From the IMG/VR virus record IMGVR_UViG_3300010375_000012, positions 1 to 34,752 of that record: 34,752 nucleotides of DNA; one strand, given 5' to 3'. The number at the start of each line of letters is the position of its first letter. Within the stretch, counting starts at the first letter, position 1. The notes below the pieces were generated by a model. The model was not told the origin of the DNA. It saw only the letters and a list, made by a program, of their open reading frames with translations, and searched no databases. Below are positions 3,984 through 29,540 of the stretch, in pieces. The DNA comes from a virus. The position numbers were made by a program, and so were the translations under genes.

Positions 3984-5987
3984 ATGTCAAAGACCTTAGC
4001 CCAAATATTTGCAATCAATCCAACAACCATCATCAATAACACCGATTTATTTTATCTTGTGCAATCGCCTTATACGCCAGGAACAGATGCAGCTATTAGC
4101 GGTGCATCCATGAAAGCAATCTTTGGTACAGGGGGAACTGTTAATCCTGGATTGATTAATCAACTTGCTTATTATGCAGCCGCTGGTAATACCTTAAGTG
4201 GTTTAGCTACGGCTAATAATGGCTTACTTGTAACGAGTGCGATTGGTACACCATCAATATTGGCAGGACCTGGAACAACTGGAAATGTGCTACAAAGTAA
4301 TGCGGCAGCACCGCCTTCCTTTTCAACGGCTACTTATCCATCAGTTGCAACATCAACTGGTAGTTTTCTTTATGCTAATGGGACGAACTGGGTTGCAAGT
4401 ACATCGTTGTGGCCTAATACTGTTGCCCCTGTCGGTAAAATTATTCGATCAGATGGTACAACAAATACTTATACGACAACGATATATCCTGATCTCGTAA
4501 CTCAAAATTCAATTCTCTATGGAAGTGCTTCCAATACTATTGGTTTACTTGCAACAGTTACAAGATCTGTTCTAACTGTTCCGTCAACTGGACTTCCTAC
4601 TTATGTAACCTTAACTGATGGTCAATTAATTATAGGATCAACAGCGGGATCACCTGCTGCGGCCTCGTTGACGGCAGGTGCTGGAATTTCAATTACACCT
4701 GGAAGCAATTCCATAAGTATTGCAGCATCATCTGGTGCTGGATCACCTTTAACGACAAAAGGTGATATCTATACATTTTCAACTGTAAATGATCGTCTTC
4801 CTGTAGCAACTGGTGATGGTAAAGTTTTGCAAGTATCATCAGGAGCAGCAACTGGGCTTGCATATTCAACTCCAACTTATCCAAGTGCAAGTGGAACATC
4901 AGGGAAATTTTTAATTTCTGATGGTACGAATAATATTTACAGTACTAGTACAATTCCAACTTCAGCAGGAGCAACTGCTAATAAAGTATTGTTATCAAAT
5001 GGAACGAATTATGTTTTATCAACACCAACATTTCCTAATGCTAGTGCTACATTAGGAAAAATAATTATATCTGATGGAACAAATTGGATAGCATCAACGC
5101 CGACTTATCCCGCTGTTGCTGGAACAGCAGGGAACGTGTTAACAAGTGATGGTACTAATTGGTTATCTTCACCAGCAGCAGGCGTAACATTACTCACGAC
5201 AAAAGGTGATTTATTCGGATTTTCTACTGTCAATGCTCGAGTTCCGGCTGTCGCTGGAAATGGGAAAGTATTACAAATTGATTCAACGGCTTCTGTTGGT
5301 CTTTCTTATTCAACACCGACATATCCAAGCGCAAGTGGTACAACAGGGAAAATATTGATATCAGATGGGACTAATAACGTTTATTCAACGCCAACTTATC
5401 CAAATTCAGCGTCAGGCACTGGAACAATATTACGTGCAGATGGTACGAATTGGGTTGCAACGACTGCGACTTATCCTGCGACTACGACCATTAATCAAAT
5501 ACTTTATTCAAGTGCTGCTAATGTTATTTCAGGTCTTGCAACGGCTAATAATGGTGTATTAGTCACAAATGGTACGGGTGTTCCAAGTATTGCAGCAGCC
5601 ATTGCAGCAAGTAATTTATTACCATTAGGAACGAACACTGTCACAGCTATTGGTAGTACTACTTATGCGATGACAACCGCGACAGGTGGTACTGCAACTG
5701 TTACTGGGCTTGCCTTTCAACCTTCATTAGTCATATTTTTAGCATCTCCAGCATCTGGGGGATCAGTAGGATTTGATAATGGAACTGCTCATGTATATTA
5801 TTCTTTTAATCCAACAGTACCAGCAGCGACTATTTCTACAAGTTTCTCTATTCGTTTAATTGTATCTACTGGGAATGATCAGCAAGGACTAATTAGTTCT
5901 TTTACTTCAGATGGATTTGTCATTACTTTTACTAAAACAGGAAGCCCGACAGGTACAGGAACCATTGCGTATTTAGCTTTTAAATAA
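3984..5987 (+). CDS. Long repetitive tail fibre protein
   Basis: 667 aa. The start at 3984 is chosen because GCAGGAG lies 6 bp upstream; an in-frame ATG at 3963 lacks a good site. The N-terminus (MSKTLAQIFAINPTTIINNT, then LFYLVQSPY) looks like an attachment domain. Most of the protein is built of ~24-residue units with the pattern ASGTxGKxLISDGTNxxxSTPTYP. A larger ~65-residue block starting LTTKGD...FSTVN.R.P occurs twice, near residues 255-320 and 403-470. The last ~100 residues form a non-repetitive beta domain that may be the trimerising or receptor-binding tip. It is almost free of charged residues in the repeats, as in trimeric beta-helical fibres. Confidence 0.7.
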   Translation: MSKTLAQIFAINPTTIINNTDLFYLVQSPYTPGTDAAISGASMKAIFGTGGTVNPGLINQLAYYAAAGNTLSGLATANNGLLVTSAIGTPSILAGPGTTGNVLQSNAAAPPSFSTATYPSVATSTGSFLYANGTNWVASTSLWPNTVAPVGKIIRSDGTTNTYTTTIYPDLVTQNSILYGSASNTIGLLATVTRSVLTVPSTGLPTYVTLTDGQLIIGSTAGSPAAASLTAGAGISITPGSNSISIAASSGAGSPLTTKGDIYTFSTVNDRLPVATGDGKVLQVSSGAATGLAYSTPTYPSASGTSGKFLISDGTNNIYSTSTIPTSAGATANKVLLSNGTNYVLSTPTFPNASATLGKIIISDGTNWIASTPTYPAVAGTAGNVLTSDGTNWLSSPAAGVTLLTTKGDLFGFSTVNARVPAVAGNGKVLQIDSTASVGLSYSTPTYPSASGTTGKILISDGTNNVYSTPTYPNSASGTGTILRADGTNWVATTATYPATTTINQILYSSAANVISGLATANNGVLVTNGTGVPSIAAAIAASNLLPLGTNTVTAIGSTTYAMTTATGGTATVTGLAFQPSLVIFLASPASGGSVGFDNGTAHVYYSFNPTVPAATISTSFSIRLIVSTGNDQQGLISSFTSDGFVITFTKTGSPTGTGTIAYLAFK

Positions 5988-14055: not shown

Positions 14056-15139
14056 AAATGTAGACTCAAAAGTTTATGAAGAGATAAAAGAAAAAATAGT
14101 CATTGAAAAATTATGTGATGTAAAGATGAAAAAAATTGATTGGCTTTGGGAAAATATCATTGCTTATGGAAAGATAACTTTATTTGCCGGTGAACCTGGC
14201 ATGGGTAAATCACAAATATTGCTTTATATCGCCAGCATAATAAGCAATGGTGAAATATTTCATCTTGAAAAAACAAAATGCGAACGAGGAAAAGTTTTGC
14301 TTATTACCAATGAAGACAATGTTGAAGATACTATCAAGCCAAGATTGTCCGTATTAAAAGCTAATATGAATAATATTCATAGTTTAAAAGGAATAAGAAA
14401 AACAGATAAAAAAGGAAATGAATATTATGATGTGATCTCACTTGTTGAACATTTATATTTATTAGAAGATCAAATCATAGAAGAAAAATATAAATTAATT
14501 GTCGTTGATCCAATAACTATGTACTTAGGATCAACTGATCAAAATCAGAATAAAGAAATCCGCACGGCATTAGGCATGTTACAAGCCGTTGCCGAACGTC
14601 ATAAAACTGCAATGCTTATTAATAGTCATTTCACTAAGCAAGGTAATGTCAAAAAAGCAGCCATTGAAAGGATTATGGGTTCAGTTGGCTTTGCCGGTGC
14701 TGCCCGTATTATTTTTGGGATGATAAGAGATCCCGAAGATGAAAATAAGCGTTTATTCATGCCAATTAAAAATAATCTAGGGCCAGATGACTTTGGCTAT
14801 CAATATGTTTTATCACCACAAGTTTTGATTAACGGTATTGGTGAGATAAAAACCTGCAAGATAGATTGGTTAGAAGGAAAAGTTGATAAAAAAATAGACG
14901 ATATTATTAATACTGTGAAAGTTGAAAAGGATTCACCAAGACTTGCAGAAACTATAGATTTTTTATTGGAAGAATTAAAGTACGAAGGACAATTTTTGAC
15001 CGATCTGCGAAAAAAAGCTGAAGCCAAGGGAATTGGGATGAATAGATTGTATGAAGCAAAGAAATTACTCAATTTATACGAAGATGATCATAGTAGACGC
15101 AAAAGATGGTACATTTCACCCTCTACGCCTGAAAAGTGA
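14045..15139 (+). CDS. RepA-like hexameric helicase (AAA_25 type)
   Basis: 364 aa. Walker A is GEPGMGKSQ (residues 49-57). VLLITNEDN follows. Walker B is LIVVDPITMYLG (Asp155), and AMLINSHFTKQG carries the His sensor near 197. The C-terminal ~90 residues form a winged-helix-like part (AETIDFLLEELKYEGQFL, MNRLYEAKKLLNL). The order matches RepA/AAA_25 replicative helicases of plasmids and phages. It overlaps the primase gene. Its stop is immediately followed by the iteron cluster, which it may load onto. Confidence 0.78.
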   Translation: MQNENVDSKVYEEIKEKIVIEKLCDVKMKKIDWLWENIIAYGKITLFAGEPGMGKSQILLYIASIISNGEIFHLEKTKCERGKVLLITNEDNVEDTIKPRLSVLKANMNNIHSLKGIRKTDKKGNEYYDVISLVEHLYLLEDQIIEEKYKLIVVDPITMYLGSTDQNQNKEIRTALGMLQAVAERHKTAMLINSHFTKQGNVKKAAIERIMGSVGFAGAARIIFGMIRDPEDENKRLFMPIKNNLGPDDFGYQYVLSPQVLINGIGEIKTCKIDWLEGKVDKKIDDIINTVKVEKDSPRLAETIDFLLEELKYEGQFLTDLRKKAEAKGIGMNRLYEAKKLLNLYEDDHSRRKRWYISPSTPEK

Positions 15140-15410
15140 CGGACAGACGGACAGATAAAAAATACCTTTGTAAACCAATGAATAATATAACGAATTATCT
15201 GTCCGTCAGTCACGGACAGATAGGCGGACAGACGGACAGACAGATCAAAAAATGATCAAGTTCAAAAAGTGAACAATTGTGTATTTTTTAACCTATCTGT
15301 CCGTCTGTCCGTGAGTGAACGGACAGCTAATAAATAATATAAATATATAATATATATATATATATTTTCTTGTCCGTCCGCGATACCTCTTTTCACGGAC
15401 GGACAGATAG
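15139..15410. other. Candidate replication origin: iteron cluster with AT-rich block
   Basis: The octamer CGGACAGA or its complement occurs at 15140, 15148, 15198 (c), 15213, 15225, 15233, 15296 (c), 15304 (c), with close variants at 15320, 15371 (c) and within 15396-15407. Two copies make a perfect 11-bp hairpin at 15196-15222. Between clusters, 15327-15370 is nearly pure A/T, a natural unwinding element. The region follows helicase and primase and holds no gene (the gap is 15140-15479). Iterons, hairpin and AT-rich block together fit an origin. Confidence 0.6.
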
Positions 15411-15479
15411 ACTTGTACAAAATTTGAAATTGGATTATTCTGCATTTTATGGCTAATCATTATTCAAAAGGACTTGAAT

Positions 15480-16931: not shown

Positions 16932-17105
16932 ATGGATTGTCCAAATTGCAAATACCCGGATAATAAAGTCATTAAATCATTACCTTCTGGCTCTGATAAA
17001 ATCATGCGGCGTCGCGAGTGCATTCGTTGCAGGCATCGCGTAACAACAGAAGAACACATAAAGGAACCTAAGAAAAAGGCACCATCTCATGTACTCATCC
17101 GATAG
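16932..17105 (+). CDS. Stand-alone NrdR-like zinc ribbon
   Basis: 57 aa. The sequence MDCPNCKYPDNKVIKS, then MRRRECIRCRHRVTTEE, matches the N-terminal zinc ribbon of the NrdR repressor: CxxC, a DxKVI strand, RRREC, CxxC and a final TTxE. NrdR's ATP-cone domain is absent; instead there is a short basic tail (KEPKKKAPSHVLIR). It overlaps the TerL start by 17 bases. A free zinc ribbon may bind promoter DNA, like the small zinc-finger activators of late genes in P2-like phages, but that is inference. Confidence 0.65.
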   Translation: MDCPNCKYPDNKVIKSLPSGSDKIMRRRECIRCRHRVTTEEHIKEPKKKAPSHVLIR

Positions 17106-18687
17106 ATTAAGCGTAAAACAAGTGATGGATTTGGGTGAGAAGTATTTAGCGAGTAAGAAGAAAGCAAAAGAAGTTCACATTACTTTCACGGATGAAAGGA
17201 CGATTATACATGCAAGCGATAAGGATAAAGTATTTATACCCTCTGCTACTGCTAAGCGTTTTATTGAATCTAGTGGTTTCGTTGATTTGGTTATGGGGCC
17301 ATATGGCTCCGGCAAATCTACAATGTGTGTTCAACGGATCGTCAGATCAGTATCAAGGATGCCCAAATGGTATAAAGGGAAACGACGAGCAAGATGGGCA
17401 ATAGTTAGAAATACTTCAGGTGAATTACAATCAACAACGCTTCAAACATGGCTTAATTGGTTTGAAAACTTAGGTGAAGTTTATCATCGTCAAAAGCCTA
17501 TAATGACTTATGAACATACATTTAATGACGGTCATGGTGAAATTGAACTTGAGCTTATCTTTATTGCATTGGATAGGCCAGATGATGTACGTAAAATTAA
17601 ATCACTTGAATTAACGGGTGTTTACCTTAATGAATTATCTGAACTTCCGCAGAATGTACTTTCGCATTTCAAGGGACGTGTTAACGGTCGTTATCCTTCC
17701 CGTAGCTTCTGTGATGTGCCTCATTGGTCTGGCATTATTGCTGATACAAATCCTCCTGATGAAGATCACTGGATATACCGAGATTTTGAGGTCAAGCCTA
17801 GCAAGGATTACACTGTATTTCATCAGCCTAGCGGATTGCTAGAAGATGAATATGGCGTACTAATTAAGGACAAAGATGGCTTATATATTCAAAATCCTCT
17901 TGCTGATAATGCTGAAAACATGGCATCTGACTATTACCCCAAACTATCTGGAAATGAAACTGAAGGTTTCATCAAAGTATATTGTTGCGGCAAATATGGA
18001 TTAGTTGAATCAGGAAAACGCGTCTATCCAGAATATGGTGATGATTTACATTCAGTGCCAAGTATTGAAGCCATACAAGGTGATCCCATTTATCTTGGCT
18101 GGGACTTTGGTCTTACACCAGCTTGCGTTGTCGTGCAAATATCGCCGCGTGGACAGGTGAGAGTGCTCAAGGAATATATCGCTGAAGATATGGGTATTAG
18201 AACCTTCGCCAAAAACATCGTGATTCCACGTCTTGCCATTGATTTTGTGTACAATAAAGTTGGAGGATCTGAAGGTGATCCTGCAGGAGCTAAAGGTGAT
18301 GAAATTATGGAAGAGCTTAGCTGTATTGGTGAACTTAATTCTTTGGGGATTACCACTAATCCTGCTTCTACTAATGATCCTTCTGTTCGTATCTCTTCTG
18401 TACGGTATTTTCTTAGCAATTTAATTGATCATAAGCCATCGTTATTAGTATCACGTGAAGGTTGTCCGACATTACGTAAGGGATTTGTAAGTGGCTATCA
18501 TTACAAGCGCGTACAGATCAACGATGATGAGCGTTACCAGGATAAACCCAATAAAAATAAATATTCGCATGTACATGATGCATTGCAGTATTGCTTAATG
18601 AGATTTGCAGCAGATAGAGTAATTGAGCGTAAAGTTGAGGATAAGTCTAAGATTGATATGTACAATCCGGTGCTTAGGATTTTTTGA
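17089..18687 (+). CDS. terL: Terminase large subunit
   Basis: 532 aa. The ATPase domain shows Walker A MGPYGSGKST (from residue 69), Walker B-like LTGVYLNE with Glu182, and the coupling motif DTNPP (219-223). The nuclease domain shows LGWDFG (Asp339), GDPAGAKGDE (around 396-405) and the C-terminal HVHDALQY. This is the headful-type motor nuclease that drives DNA into the procapsid through the portal. A ~50-residue N-terminal extension precedes the ATPase. An AAAAAGG site lies within the upstream zinc-ribbon gene. Confidence 0.92.
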   Translation: MYSSDRLSVKQVMDLGEKYLASKKKAKEVHITFTDERTIIHASDKDKVFIPSATAKRFIESSGFVDLVMGPYGSGKSTMCVQRIVRSVSRMPKWYKGKRRARWAIVRNTSGELQSTTLQTWLNWFENLGEVYHRQKPIMTYEHTFNDGHGEIELELIFIALDRPDDVRKIKSLELTGVYLNELSELPQNVLSHFKGRVNGRYPSRSFCDVPHWSGIIADTNPPDEDHWIYRDFEVKPSKDYTVFHQPSGLLEDEYGVLIKDKDGLYIQNPLADNAENMASDYYPKLSGNETEGFIKVYCCGKYGLVESGKRVYPEYGDDLHSVPSIEAIQGDPIYLGWDFGLTPACVVVQISPRGQVRVLKEYIAEDMGIRTFAKNIVIPRLAIDFVYNKVGGSEGDPAGAKGDEIMEELSCIGELNSLGITTNPASTNDPSVRISSVRYFLSNLIDHKPSLLVSREGCPTLRKGFVSGYHYKRVQINDDERYQDKPNKNKYSHVHDALQYCLMRFAADRVIERKVEDKSKIDMYNPVLRIF

Positions 18688-18708: not shown

Positions 18709-18900
18709 ATGGAAAAGTTGAAACCGCTTTGGCTTTATAAGCAAGATGATATTACAACATGGAAATATCTATATTGTGTTATTGCTGGTAATCGAGATAA
18801 TAAAACAAGATTTGTTAAAGAATGGATATTTAATCCAGATTTTGCTTTTAAAGATATCGATAAAAAATATAATTTAAAATTGTGTTGTAATGTTACGTAA
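18709..18900 (+). CDS. 63-aa protein of unknown function
   Basis: Good site (AAAAGGAATCGAC before ATG). Aromatic-rich and compact (KPLWLYKQDDITTWKYLYCV, then RFVKEWIFNPDFAFKDI). It ends in KLCCNVT. It is the last gene before the first pentamer block. It may belong with the RAMP-like gene or with TerL. No family recognised. Confidence 0.45.
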   Translation: MEKLKPLWLYKQDDITTWKYLYCVIAGNRDNKTRFVKEWIFNPDFAFKDIDKKYNLKLCCNVT

Positions 18901-18947
18901 ACTGGCGAAATATGAGACAAGAAAAGGGTTTTTATTTTTATCTTATC

Positions 18948-19049
18948 TGTATGGTAACGTCATGTGATGTCATGTTTTGTTATGAAAACTAAGGTAAGGA
19001 TTTTTAATCTGTGATGTACCGTAATGTAGTGTAGCGTTCTGTAATGTAA
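18948..19049. repeat. TGTNN pentamer array blocks A1 and A2
   Basis: Block A1 (18948-18987) is eight 5-bp units: TGTAT GGTAA CGTCA TGTGA, then TGTCA TGTTT TGTTA TGAAA. It is followed by ACTAAGGTAAGGATT. Block A2 (19010-19049) is again eight units: TGTGA TGTAC CGTAA TGTAG, then TGTAG CGTTC TGTAA TGTAA. It is followed, after a short gap, by TCTAAGGATATT and the ATG of the RAMP-like gene. G and T at unit positions 2-3 are almost fixed; the last two bases vary freely. The gap 18901-19068 holds no credible gene. Confidence 0.85.
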
Positions 19050-19068
19050 ACCAATCTAAGGATATTGA

Positions 19069-19617
19069 ATGAAATTACATGTGGAGATAACAGGGATTAC
19101 TCCCTTATTGATGAACCGTTTTAATATTGATGAGCAACAATCGAAAGTCAAAGAAAAGAATTTAACTCCGCGTGAATATGCTAAAAAAGTCTGTTATGAA
19201 GATGAAGATGGAAATCTTTATTATCCGACTACAAATATTTATGCTTGTATTATTGAAGCTGGGAAATTTCATAAAGACGGCAAGGTAAAAGTCACAACGG
19301 CTAGGTCAAGTTTAATACCAGCGGGATTGATGATCGATGGAGAGACAATCTATTTCAAAGAGCCGAAGACTTGGGAGGTTGATAGTCGCGCTGTGGTTGT
19401 GCCTTCTACTGGGGGTAGGATTGTATGTCACAGGCCTCGTCTTGACACTTGGGTACTCGAATTTGTTTTGACATTAGATACGAAAATGTTTAGTCCGAAG
19501 TTTATCAGGACATTGATTGATGATGCGGGTTCGAAGGTCGGATTGGGCGATTTTCGACCAGCTCGCAAGGGAATCTTCGGCAGATTCGTGGTCACCAATT
19601 GGCGTGAAGGAAATTGA
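19069..19617 (+). CDS. RAMP-like (Cas7/Cas5-like fold) phage protein, candidate nucleic-acid binder
   Basis: 182 aa, ATG 6 bases after CTAAGGA. The N-terminus MKLHVEITGITPLLMNRF resembles the first strand and loop of RAMP proteins. YPTTNIYACIIEAGKF (residues 52-67) recalls the RAMP IPGSSLKGALR segment. The end, GSKVGLGDFRPARKGIFGRF (154-173), looks like the glycine-rich RAMP loop (GLGxxRxxGFGR). RAMP folds in Cas5, Cas6 and Cas7 bind RNA, and Cas7 does so with a fixed step along the guide. No cas gene or CRISPR array is near; TGTNN pentamer blocks flank the gene instead. It may coat or recognise those repeats. The fold is inferred from motifs only; a plain phage ssDNA-binding or recombination protein is an alternative. 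Confidence 0.45.
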   Translation: MKLHVEITGITPLLMNRFNIDEQQSKVKEKNLTPREYAKKVCYEDEDGNLYYPTTNIYACIIEAGKFHKDGKVKVTTARSSLIPAGLMIDGETIYFKEPKTWEVDSRAVVVPSTGGRIVCHRPRLDTWVLEFVLTLDTKMFSPKFIRTLIDDAGSKVGLGDFRPARKGIFGRFVVTNWREGN

Positions 19618-19623
19618 TTATAC

Positions 19624-19811
19624 TGTGATGTCTAGTGATGTGAAGTAATGTAAAGTTTTGAGATGCAATGTACGGGTTTTTTAGATGTCCTGTAGTGTCT
19701 TGAGGCGCTGTGTACTGTCTTGTAAGCAAAAGTAAGGTACGGATTATAGAAGTTAGAATGGAATTTGATTGTGTCATGTAGTGTGCAGTGCCGTCCTGTG
19801 TTGTACTGTAA
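19624..19811. repeat. TGTNN pentamer array blocks B1, B2 and B3
   Basis: B1 (19624-19673) has ten units: TGTGA TGTCT AGTGA TGTGA AGTAA ... TGTAC. B2 (19686-19725) has eight: TGTCC TGTAG TGTCT TGAGG, then CGCTG TGTAC TGTCT TGTAA. It is followed by AGTAAGGTACGGATTAT. B3 (19772-19811) has eight: TGTCA TGTAG TGTGC AGTGC, then CGTCC TGTGT TGTAC TGTAA. It is followed by TCTAAGGCAAGGATT and the next ATG. Same polarity as A1 and A2. The gap 19618-19826 holds no credible gene. Confidence 0.85.
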
Positions 19812-19826
19812 TCTAAGGCAAGGATT

Positions 19827-20078
19827 ATGAGAAAAGAAATAGATGATTTATTCAATGCATTTGCTAATTTAATTAGATCATATAATTTTTCTAATGGATA
19901 TTTTGAGTTTAAAACGATTATTCTACAATCTGGTAAAAATAAAGACATCTCTAATTTCCAAACTTATTTAATAAAAATAAAAAAAGATGAAGCATGGCCA
20001 GAAGATTATGAGAAAGAATTAGAAATTAGAAAAAAATGTAGTAAATGTCTTTTAACGGAAAAAAGGAATAAACCATGA
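19827..20078 (+). CDS. 83-aa protein downstream of the pentamer arrays
   Basis: ATG after block B3's tail (AAGGCAAGGATT), which serves as its ribosome site. N-terminal helix (MRKEIDDLFNAFANLIRSYN), a strand pair (YFEFKTIILQSG, FQTYLIKIKKDE) and a basic C-terminus with CSKC. Its stop overlaps the start of the next ORF by ATGA. It shares its leader type with the RAMP-like gene, so the two are likely co-regulated. Function unknown. Confidence 0.5.
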   Translation: MRKEIDDLFNAFANLIRSYNFSNGYFEFKTIILQSGKNKDISNFQTYLIKIKKDEAWPEDYEKELEIRKKCSKCLLTEKRNKP

Positions 20079-20261: not shown

Positions 20262-21107
20262 ATGTCAAACGGAGATTGTATTTGTTGTGCAGGGCCTCAA
20301 GGCCCGCAAGGTATTCCAGGTGTTCAAGGCCCACAAGGTGTTCAAGGCCAACAAGGTCAGAAAGGCGATAAAGGCGATCAGGGATTACAAGGGTTGCAAG
20401 GCCCAATGGGTGATAAAGGACTAAAAGGTGACAAAGGTGATCCAGGTCAGGATGGTCTCAGCATTAGAGGGCCAGCAGGTCCGCAAGGATTGCCAGGATT
20501 GGACGGTCATGATGGGGTGCCAGGGTTACAAGGGCCAATGGGTCCGATGGGTCCACAAGGCTTACAGGGGCCGCAGGGACCGAAAGGTGATTGTGTGGCT
20601 TGTCCTTGTGAATGTCCTGGAGGTGGTGAACCTGAATTTGCTGAAGTTTATTCATCTATCGCACAAGATCTTATTGCATCACCCGGTGCAAATTTGGCAG
20701 GTGGTGTTGTTAAGCTTGAAAATACTATTTTTGCAACTGCCAATATTGATGTCAGTAGTGCGTCGGTAAATGGGAAAATAGTCATTAAAAAAGCGGGATG
20801 GTATGATATTTATACAGGGATGTGTGCTGCATTAAATCCCATTTCATCTCCATTGCCGGTCTGGACATTATCATTGTTTAAAAATGGCATAATTGTCCCA
20901 GGATCAACTTTTGCAAACATGACATTGTCCCCTGAGCAGAAATCAAATGAAGTCGTAGCGGATGTATTTGTGCATTGTGTTGCTGGTGATGTTATTGAGC
21001 TTGCCAATACTTCTACTGCGTTGATTAATCTAACTGCTCCATCACTTGGCACAAATGCTCAAACCAATAGTGCATATGTTAAGGTTATTTTACTGAAGGC
21101 TGACTAA
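20262..21107 (+). CDS. Collagen-like virion protein with C1q-like head
   Basis: 281 aa from the ATG at 20262, which has ATAAGGA 8 bases upstream. After [10 protein letters not shown] come 18 Gly-X-Y triplets, a five-residue break (GLSIR), then 13 more triplets. A second Cys cluster follows (CVACPCEC, residues 111-118). The remaining ~155 residues form a beta-rich globular part ([40 protein letters not shown]) of C1q/TNF-like type. Trimeric collagen stalks with such heads occur on phage fibres and bacterial surfaces. The Cys clusters at both ends could crosslink the trimer. Likely an adhesion or decoration fibre. Confidence 0.7.
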
Positions 21108-28473: not shown

Positions 28474-28496
28474 ATTTTTCGTCATAGGGAGGCAGG

Positions 28497-29540
28497 ATGC
28501 CTCAAATAGCCAGGACGACAAATGATGTTATCATCAATGCGCTTTACCTCACGGGAGAGCTTGGCGTAGGTGAGACCCCAGACCCATTTATGATCAGAAC
28601 GGGTCTGGATATCCTAAATGAGCTTTTAGATTTTTACTCATCAGATAGCATCTATATTCCATTTTTGACGACCATTGATTTTAACTTTGTCGTTGGTAAA
28701 GATACGTATTCCATCTCTGATATGGTTCCTGCTGATATTAGGCAAGACCGTATCATTGATTTATCTTTTGCCAATTACTTTGTTCCGGCAAATGGTAATC
28801 CAGCCGGTGCTTTACCCATCTCATTTAGCTTTACGGCTGATAGTGTGACAAATTTATTAACATTATCATCAACGATATCATTTCCAACCAATACACCAGT
28901 TACCATCTCAACGCCGCAAGGTGGCATTATTCCGCAACCTTTTATTGCAGGGGTGACTTATTGGGTCATCAATGTATCGCCAACGACGATGTATCTTGCG
29001 GCATCATCACAAGATGCATTATCCGGTAATTTTATAAATATCTTGACCAATGGTACATCACCTAATGTGGTGACTTCATTTAATTTTCCGACGCAGCCAG
29101 TTAATTCTGCATTGGTTTATCCCTTGCGTATTATCAATAAAGCATCTTATTGGAATGTGGTTCGGCAAAATAATTTACTTGCTCGTCCTGGATTTATCTT
29201 TTTAGACAAGCAAGCTAATGAAAGTTTTATTACGGTCTACCCTATTCCTGATCAACCTTATGCTGCAAAGATTCAAGTGAAAGTTATGATTAATGATTTG
29301 GGTAATCAAGATTCATTGGGGGAACTTCCTCCCATGTATTACCGATTATTAAAATATGGGATTGCACGAGAATTTATTGCGTATTTCCCATCTGCTAATT
29401 GGCCGCAAATGAATGAAGATGCTTATCAAGATACTTATGCAACCGTTAAAAACGTGAATGAAACAGATCTCACCTTAAGACCATCTGTCACATTGACAGC
29501 ACCAGAGCCATTCTACTGGCCAAACATATTGAGTTACTGA
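28497..29540 (+). CDS. Tail accessory factor, P22 gp4 type, with inserted beta domain
   Basis: 347 aa, about twice P22 gp4 (166 aa). The N-terminal ~90 residues (MPQIARTTNDVIINALYLTG, then GETPDPFMIRTGLDILNELL, then DTYSISDMVPADIR) and the end (MYYRLLKYGIAREFIAYF) match the family. Between them, near residues 105-200, is an insertion (ADSVTNLLTLSSTISFPTNT, then GVTYWVINVSPTTMYLA) that also occurs in the next protein. gp4-like proteins form a ring below the portal. Confidence 0.75.
   Translation: MPQIARTTNDVIINALYLTGELGVGETPDPFMIRTGLDILNELLDFYSSDSIYIPFLTTIDFNFVVGKDTYSISDMVPADIRQDRIIDLSFANYFVPANGNPAGALPISFSFTADSVTNLLTLSSTISFPTNTPVTISTPQGGIIPQPFIAGVTYWVINVSPTTMYLAASSQDALSGNFINILTNGTSPNVVTSFNFPTQPVNSALVYPLRIINKASYWNVVRQNNLLARPGFIFLDKQANESFITVYPIPDQPYAAKIQVKVMINDLGNQDSLGELPPMYYRLLKYGIAREFIAYFPSANWPQMNEDAYQDTYATVKNVNETDLTLRPSVTLTAPEPFYWPNILSY

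Follow-up and report, generated by a model that had tools for sequence, protein, structure and literature searches.

What is the role of five blocks of 5-bp periodic sequence that surround a single gene in a viral DNA of 34,752 nucleotides (IMG/VR record IMGVR_UViG_3300010375_000012, positions 1 to 34,752; this complete stretch is called the window)? An earlier note, made from its letters, considered a nucleation site for a filament, a centromere, or a transcribed RNA read in 5-nt steps. The locus is very probably a Viral Interference Programmable Repeat (VIPR) system of a tailed phage with five candidate vrRNAs. The last of the three proposals would then describe, by homology to the Vipr protein of SUSP1, essentially the VIPR mechanism. 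VIPR was reported as a weapon of phages that is related to the CRISPR ancestor (PMC13142463; bioRxiv 2026.04.26.720920), with SUSP1 as its founding and studied phage. It is described there as composed of a small ancestral RAMP protein, Vipr, and of vrRNAs made of tandem pentanucleotides. The vrRNAs have 9–16 YNNGG units and a constant 3' tail, and their NN dinucleotides pair with DNA while one target base is skipped per unit (PMC13142463).

Organization of the locus

The window codes for a terminase large subunit, portal, major head protein, head closure protein Hc3, primase and helicase; the terminase, portal, head, primase and helicase genes identify a tailed phage. The features of the locus are all found on the plus strand, downstream of the terminase large subunit gene (17089–18687; phrog_2, E 9e-27; Pfam Terminase_3). 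A probable vrRNA remnant of four units (TGTGT, TGTAA, TGTTA, CGTAA; 18881–18900), assigned to direct-repeat family D1, overlaps the 3' end of a 63-aa ORF (18709–18900). Candidate vrRNA 1 has its tract at 18948–18987 (NN = AT AA CA GA CA TT TA (AA)) and its tail (actaaggtaaggatttttaatc) at 18988–19009. It is followed by candidate vrRNA 2, with tract at 19010–19049 (NN = GA AC AA AG AG TC AA (AA)) and tail at 19050–19068. The gene vipr (19069–19617) codes for a 182-aa protein with a predicted RAMP fold and the G-loop GLGDFRPARKGIFGRF. Downstream are candidate vrRNA 3, with tract at 19624–19673 (NN = GA CT GA GA AA AA TT GA (AA AC)) and a tail end (gggttttttaga, 19674–19685) like the L215/L218-type tails; candidate vrRNA 4, with tract at 19686–19725 (NN = CC AG CT GG TG AC CT (AA)) and tail gcaaaagtaaggtacggattatag at 19726–19749; and candidate vrRNA 5, with tract at 19772–19811 (NN = CA AG GC GC CC GT AC (AA)) and tail tctaaggcaaggatt at 19812–19826. 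Tails 1, 2, 4 and 5 were delimited by the consensus of 55 distinct tails. The next ORF (19827–20078) codes for an 83-aa product of unknown family, for which no evidence of being the VIPR accessory protein, vap, was found.

Two further features of the window lie outside this locus. A collagen-like Gly-X-Y tail fibre protein is encoded downstream (20263–21107), while GGACAGAC/GTCTGTCC repeats of both orientations cluster in an intergenic region (15138–15420), where they surround an AT-rich run and look like an iteron-type replication origin.

The 5-bp periodicity

The five blocks, whose coordinates in the earlier note proved correct, are intergenic and outside predicted genes. The G-T dinucleotide occupies unit positions 2–3 in 7/8, 8/8, 8/10, 6/8 and 8/8 in-register units of blocks 1 to 5, respectively, T leads about 70% of the units, and positions 4–5 are nearly free (entropy 1.7–1.9 bits). 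The blocks have a single polarity, that of the vipr strand. Their description requires some corrections: block 1 consists of seven strict GT units plus TGAAA, and block 4, with TG in 7/8 units, includes the two broken units TGAGG and CGCTG. Tracts do have 8–10 units, but the claim that four of the five have exactly eight depends in part on where the count is stopped, because the 5-bp register continues into the fixed tail (xxTAA GGYAA GGRTT); tracts are longer if the in-register tail units are included.

The blocks are not a simple tandem repeat, as the earlier note had recognized: the units are not copies of one another and Tandem Repeats Finder detects almost nothing. When a block is defined by at least 6/8 GT units in a 5-base register, no other is present in the window, both strands scanned. 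Among 2000 dinucleotide-preserving shuffles of positions 18901–19850, one block appeared in 9 and two in none, as compared to the five observed; 60 shuffles of the whole window yielded zero blocks. Autocorrelation at lag 5 has z = 6.3 upstream and 6.4 downstream of the gene, with harmonics at lags 10, 15 and 20; other periods are absent. A nucleotide search of phages with the block region gave no match, and neither did Rfam with this region and six related array loci. Scans for promoters and terminators gave no more matches than expected by chance.

The protein encoded between the blocks

The 182-aa product of vipr matches phrog_4652, a family of unknown function, and has no match to Pfam or PADLOC models nor a convincing one to NCBIfam. 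It is a Vipr-family RAMP protein, by sequence homology and predicted fold. Tblastn against annotated phages detects phiSUSP1 (KT454805.2, positions 28480–29052; 25.6% identity over 99% of the query), and a profile of the window clade built with SUSP1 left out has the "SUSP1 Vipr protein" of PDB 36pp as its sole significant match (E 8.8e-9). In the AlphaFold model (pLDDT 83), all 50 Foldseek matches listed are chains of class 1 CRISPR effectors (Csm/Cmr/type VII or Cas7-11; best E 1.5e-6). The residues of the glycine-rich loop are invariant in the Vipr alignment. The protein thus has, by sequence and predicted fold, the small size, RRM core, G-loop and homology to known Viprs that define the family. 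In the tree, the window protein groups with its ten close relatives in a supported clade that excludes the SUSP1 group; branches in other parts of the tree are long.

Anatomy of the repeat units and tails

The window and its ten relatives provide 81 parsed tracts with 72 distinct guides. Over their 702 units the entropies of positions 1 to 5 are 1.47, 0.28, 0.55, 1.89 and 1.88 bits; position 1 is T in 64%, A in 20% and G in 8%, position 2 is G in 96%, and position 3 is Y (T or C) in 96%. The fixed triplet of this lineage is UGU (xGY), not the strict GGY. Tracts end in a common tail, xxTAAGGYAAGGRUUUUUAAU, which maintains the 5-nt register and includes GGY units with fixed AA. Allowing for some variation, xxTAAGGYAAGGR(T)n is the form common to the 55 distinct tails.

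The tail of the last upstream vrRNA brings AAGG to a few bases before the vipr start codon in the window and in most of nine relatives. Since the tail of vrRNA 2 forms in this way a likely ribosome-binding site for vipr (AAGGA in the window), the arrangement suggests that processing or binding of vrRNA 2 may regulate vipr. The tail of vrRNA 5 likewise provides AAGG ahead of the start of the 83-aa ORF and is its likely ribosome-binding site.

Association of the blocks with vipr

The relation between blocks and vipr was examined by sampling from both sides. Viral contigs were picked solely for containing (TGTNN)6. Most of their single-tract matches are microsatellite-like, while contigs with several non-identical tracts have a relative of the 182-aa protein nearby. 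Simple TGTNN microsatellites, which are frequent among viral contigs, were excluded from consideration. Phrog_4652 is present in 9 of the 40 block-bearing records, including all six richest in non-identical blocks (L075, L098, L102, L103, L104 and L187). Sampling by protein gave ten viral contigs with a Vipr of 76–88% identity, each of which has 4 to about 18 tracts beside vipr, on the strand of the gene and with different NN content. The case that the earlier note had held to speak against its reading, genes kept and pattern lost, is therefore not found for vipr among these ten. In the relatives, as in the window, vipr is located between the terminase and portal genes. Period-5 tracts also adjoin the gene in six of six distant Vipr homologues from phages or plasmids, where the triplet is GGY, GGC or GCA; phiHSIC, a relative of the SUSP1 group, has GCA/NN tracts. 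The SUSP1 locus itself, in the sequence fetched, carries four GGY/NN arrays on the two sides of vipr, with one ahead of the gene and three behind it, as published. A profile that combined all Vipr lineages was too heterogeneous to be used in scanning the collection.

None of 73 terminase relatives carries a tract, and Vipr was not found in the 15 large ones checked. The pattern thus tracks vipr rather than the phage backbone, with L107 (described below), which has one block but no vipr, as the exception. Guides common to different relatives are limited to the near-identical pair L211/L213, besides one duplication inside L218. Guides are replaced rapidly against the background of a conserved Vipr, and across related loci the register is kept with differing NN, which agrees with the view of the earlier note that the frame is constrained and the content free.

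Proposed function and search for targets

By analogy with SUSP1 (PMC13142463), the tracts would be transcribed and then cut into vrRNAs. Vipr subunits would form a row on the RNA, each covering five bases and gripping the fixed triplet, which is UGU in this lineage. The other two bases of a unit would pair with double-stranded DNA, one target base being skipped at each step, and the complex would repress genes that belong to competing phages, satellites or prophages. A guide could offer 7–8 readable dinucleotides, that is 14–16 specified bases.

The 72 distinct guides were compared to 2 Mb of viral DNA, both related and unrelated, with skips of 0 to 4 and with shuffled guides as control. At skips 0, 1, 2 and 4 the guides match as often as their shuffled versions do, with no excess, and skip 3 recovers only the arrays themselves. 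Exact scans of viral contigs with vrRNAs 2, 3, 4, 5 and one L217 guide gave 51, 117, 17, 1 and 1 matches, respectively, in unrelated phages; these matches are scattered, chance-like and not significant, and they appear grouped largely because the contigs are redundant. None of the matched phages has similarity to six structural or replication proteins of the window or to Vipr. A host search of bacterial and archaeal genomes with Vipr or the terminase gave no match. The collection searched probably lacks the likely targets, which would be phages or satellites that share a host with this phage.

Alternative explanations

A site bound as double-stranded DNA, be it a centromere/partition array or a point of filament nucleation, would fit blocks of one polarity with one protein adjacent. 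Periodic sites can also seed filaments. We consider both proposals very improbable, since the protein is a RAMP rather than a DNA-binding protein of the ParB/ParR kind, the genes examined include no partition gene, and the tails, the free NN and the range of 4 to about 18 blocks fit guides better. The locus is assigned to VIPR and not to a centromere because of the homology and fold of Vipr, the tracts beside vipr in ten relatives and their absence from the 73 terminase relatives. The chance that the blocks are a functionless expansion of simple sequence by polymerase slippage is close to nil: many viral contigs do carry true (TGTNN) microsatellites in records devoid of phrog_4652, but units in the window are not mutual copies, Tandem Repeats Finder is nearly blank, and ten related loci have blocks of differing content with a conserved tail, their register being kept independently of content.

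Another possibility, still unlikely, is that the locus codes for a ribonucleoprotein of the VIPR family that reads its targets differently from SUSP1, using another skip or RNA instead of DNA, or whose vrRNAs are merely regulatory leaders of vipr. It would be in line with the fixed triplet unlike that of SUSP1, with the lack of match excess under the 1-nt-skip rule in the 2 Mb search and, for leaders, with the vrRNA tail that doubles as the likely ribosome-binding site of vipr. However, the protein family and the RNA plan are those of SUSP1, where the skip rule was measured, and an absence of matches is expected if the target phages are outside the collection. A leader role is impossible for guides located downstream of vipr, and the hypervariability of NN points to targeting. 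A VIPR system that would read DNA in the way of SUSP1 is the preferred explanation.

Unusual relatives

Several related loci depart from this organization. L107 (IMGVR_UViG_3300026075_000006) has at 4490–4590 an orphan vrRNA, made of one UGU/NN tract and a tail, between the terminase gene and the 83-aa ORF; no Vipr was found in its 34-kb record. The ORF (4241–4489 in L107) is 100% identical to that of the window while the neighbouring terminase is 68% identical, which suggests that the ORF and the vrRNA tail may have been exchanged together recently. L218 (IMGVR_UViG_3300028806_000002) carries at 2757–2788 a solitary 32-nt type I-C-like CRISPR repeat, GTCGCGCTCTTCACGAGCGCGTGGATTGAAAC, with a 7-bp stem. 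It occupies the position of a vrRNA tail between two vrRNA tracts and is the single copy in 407 loci; a Paenibacillus plasmid has an array of a repeat 84% identical to it with a spacing of 65–68 bp. The L218 repeat is, judged from sequence, a candidate RNA anti-CRISPR (Racr) or CRISPR/vrRNA hybrid.

In L098 (976–1850), copies of a tRNA-like element lie between tracts that read AAC/NN on the strand of vipr. This element has an acceptor-like stem, D-arm-like and T-arm sequence (GCAGGTTCGATTCCTGC) and no anticodon arm, and is called neither by ARAGORN nor by Rfam. In L075 (9399–10290), UGU/NN tracts that adjoin a vipr of 30% identity alternate with a conserved ~47-nt repeat that contains the two hairpins CGACAGACTTGATCTGTCG and AACCCATCAGAAAATGGGTT. 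The tracts of L187, L102, L098, L103, L104 and L092 have CAC, AAC or ACA/NN when read on the strand of vipr (GTG, GTT or TGT when read on the opposite one), so that either their triplet differs or their vrRNAs are transcribed against vipr.

Comparison with known systems

VIPR was already described in a preprint of April 2026, to which the window adds a member, perhaps a code variant. The system so far rests on that single 2026 preprint, with detailed tests on GGY-type systems. The window and its ten relatives represent a lineage whose fixed triplet differs, and they bear on how RAMP proteins recognize RNA and on the generality of the non-contiguous code. The L107 orphan guide and the L218 hybrid offer concrete material on how guides may move and come into contact with CRISPR. 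Note that the conserved VIPR triplet is given as GGY "or a related consensus" (PMC13142463, fig. S17), and UGU/NN may already be among the consensuses listed there. Unexpected to a specialist are the UGU triplet, the in-register tail as likely ribosome-binding site, the failure to find a vap, the orphan guide and the hybrid. Whether UGU/NN is a distinct VIPR code is more doubtful. We propose this only tentatively, for a system that would hold x-G-U instead of GGY, lie inside the packaging module with no accessory gene, use its vrRNA tail as vipr ribosome-binding site (and so regulate itself through guide processing), and have guides that travel alone to Vipr-less phages or join a host-type CRISPR repeat.

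The locus shares with SUSP1 VIPR a homologous RAMP, guide tracts on both sides of its gene, period 5 with a fixed triplet followed by free NN, a constant 3' tail, carriage by a phage and the absence of a CRISPR array at the locus. It differs in having UGU (xGY) in place of GGY, a short tail in 5-nt register, shorter tracts (8–10 versus 9–16 units, unless tail units are counted) and vipr between terminase and portal genes. No vap is recognizable: around the locus no ORF besides terminase, portal and vipr is common to most relatives. The accessory gene beside vipr is typical but not universal according to PMC13142463.

Membership in class 1 CRISPR-Cas was considered and rejected, as the locus has no array of identical repeats and the protein family has no PADLOC match. 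The protein resembles the class 1 Cas7/Csm3 RAMPs in fold (TM 0.5–0.6 in Foldseek), glycine-rich loop and expected role of lining the RNA. The resemblance is accompanied by 10–14% identity, a single small protein, a period of 5 and not 6 nt, no repeat-spacer array at the locus and no cas genes among the genes examined. TIGR-Tas and CRISPR arrays are likewise guide arrays borne by phages or elements; the window differs from them in its protein family and in the lack of identical direct repeats between unique spacers at the locus. The earlier note was right to set the blocks apart from CRISPR, TIGR, iteron and REP layouts.
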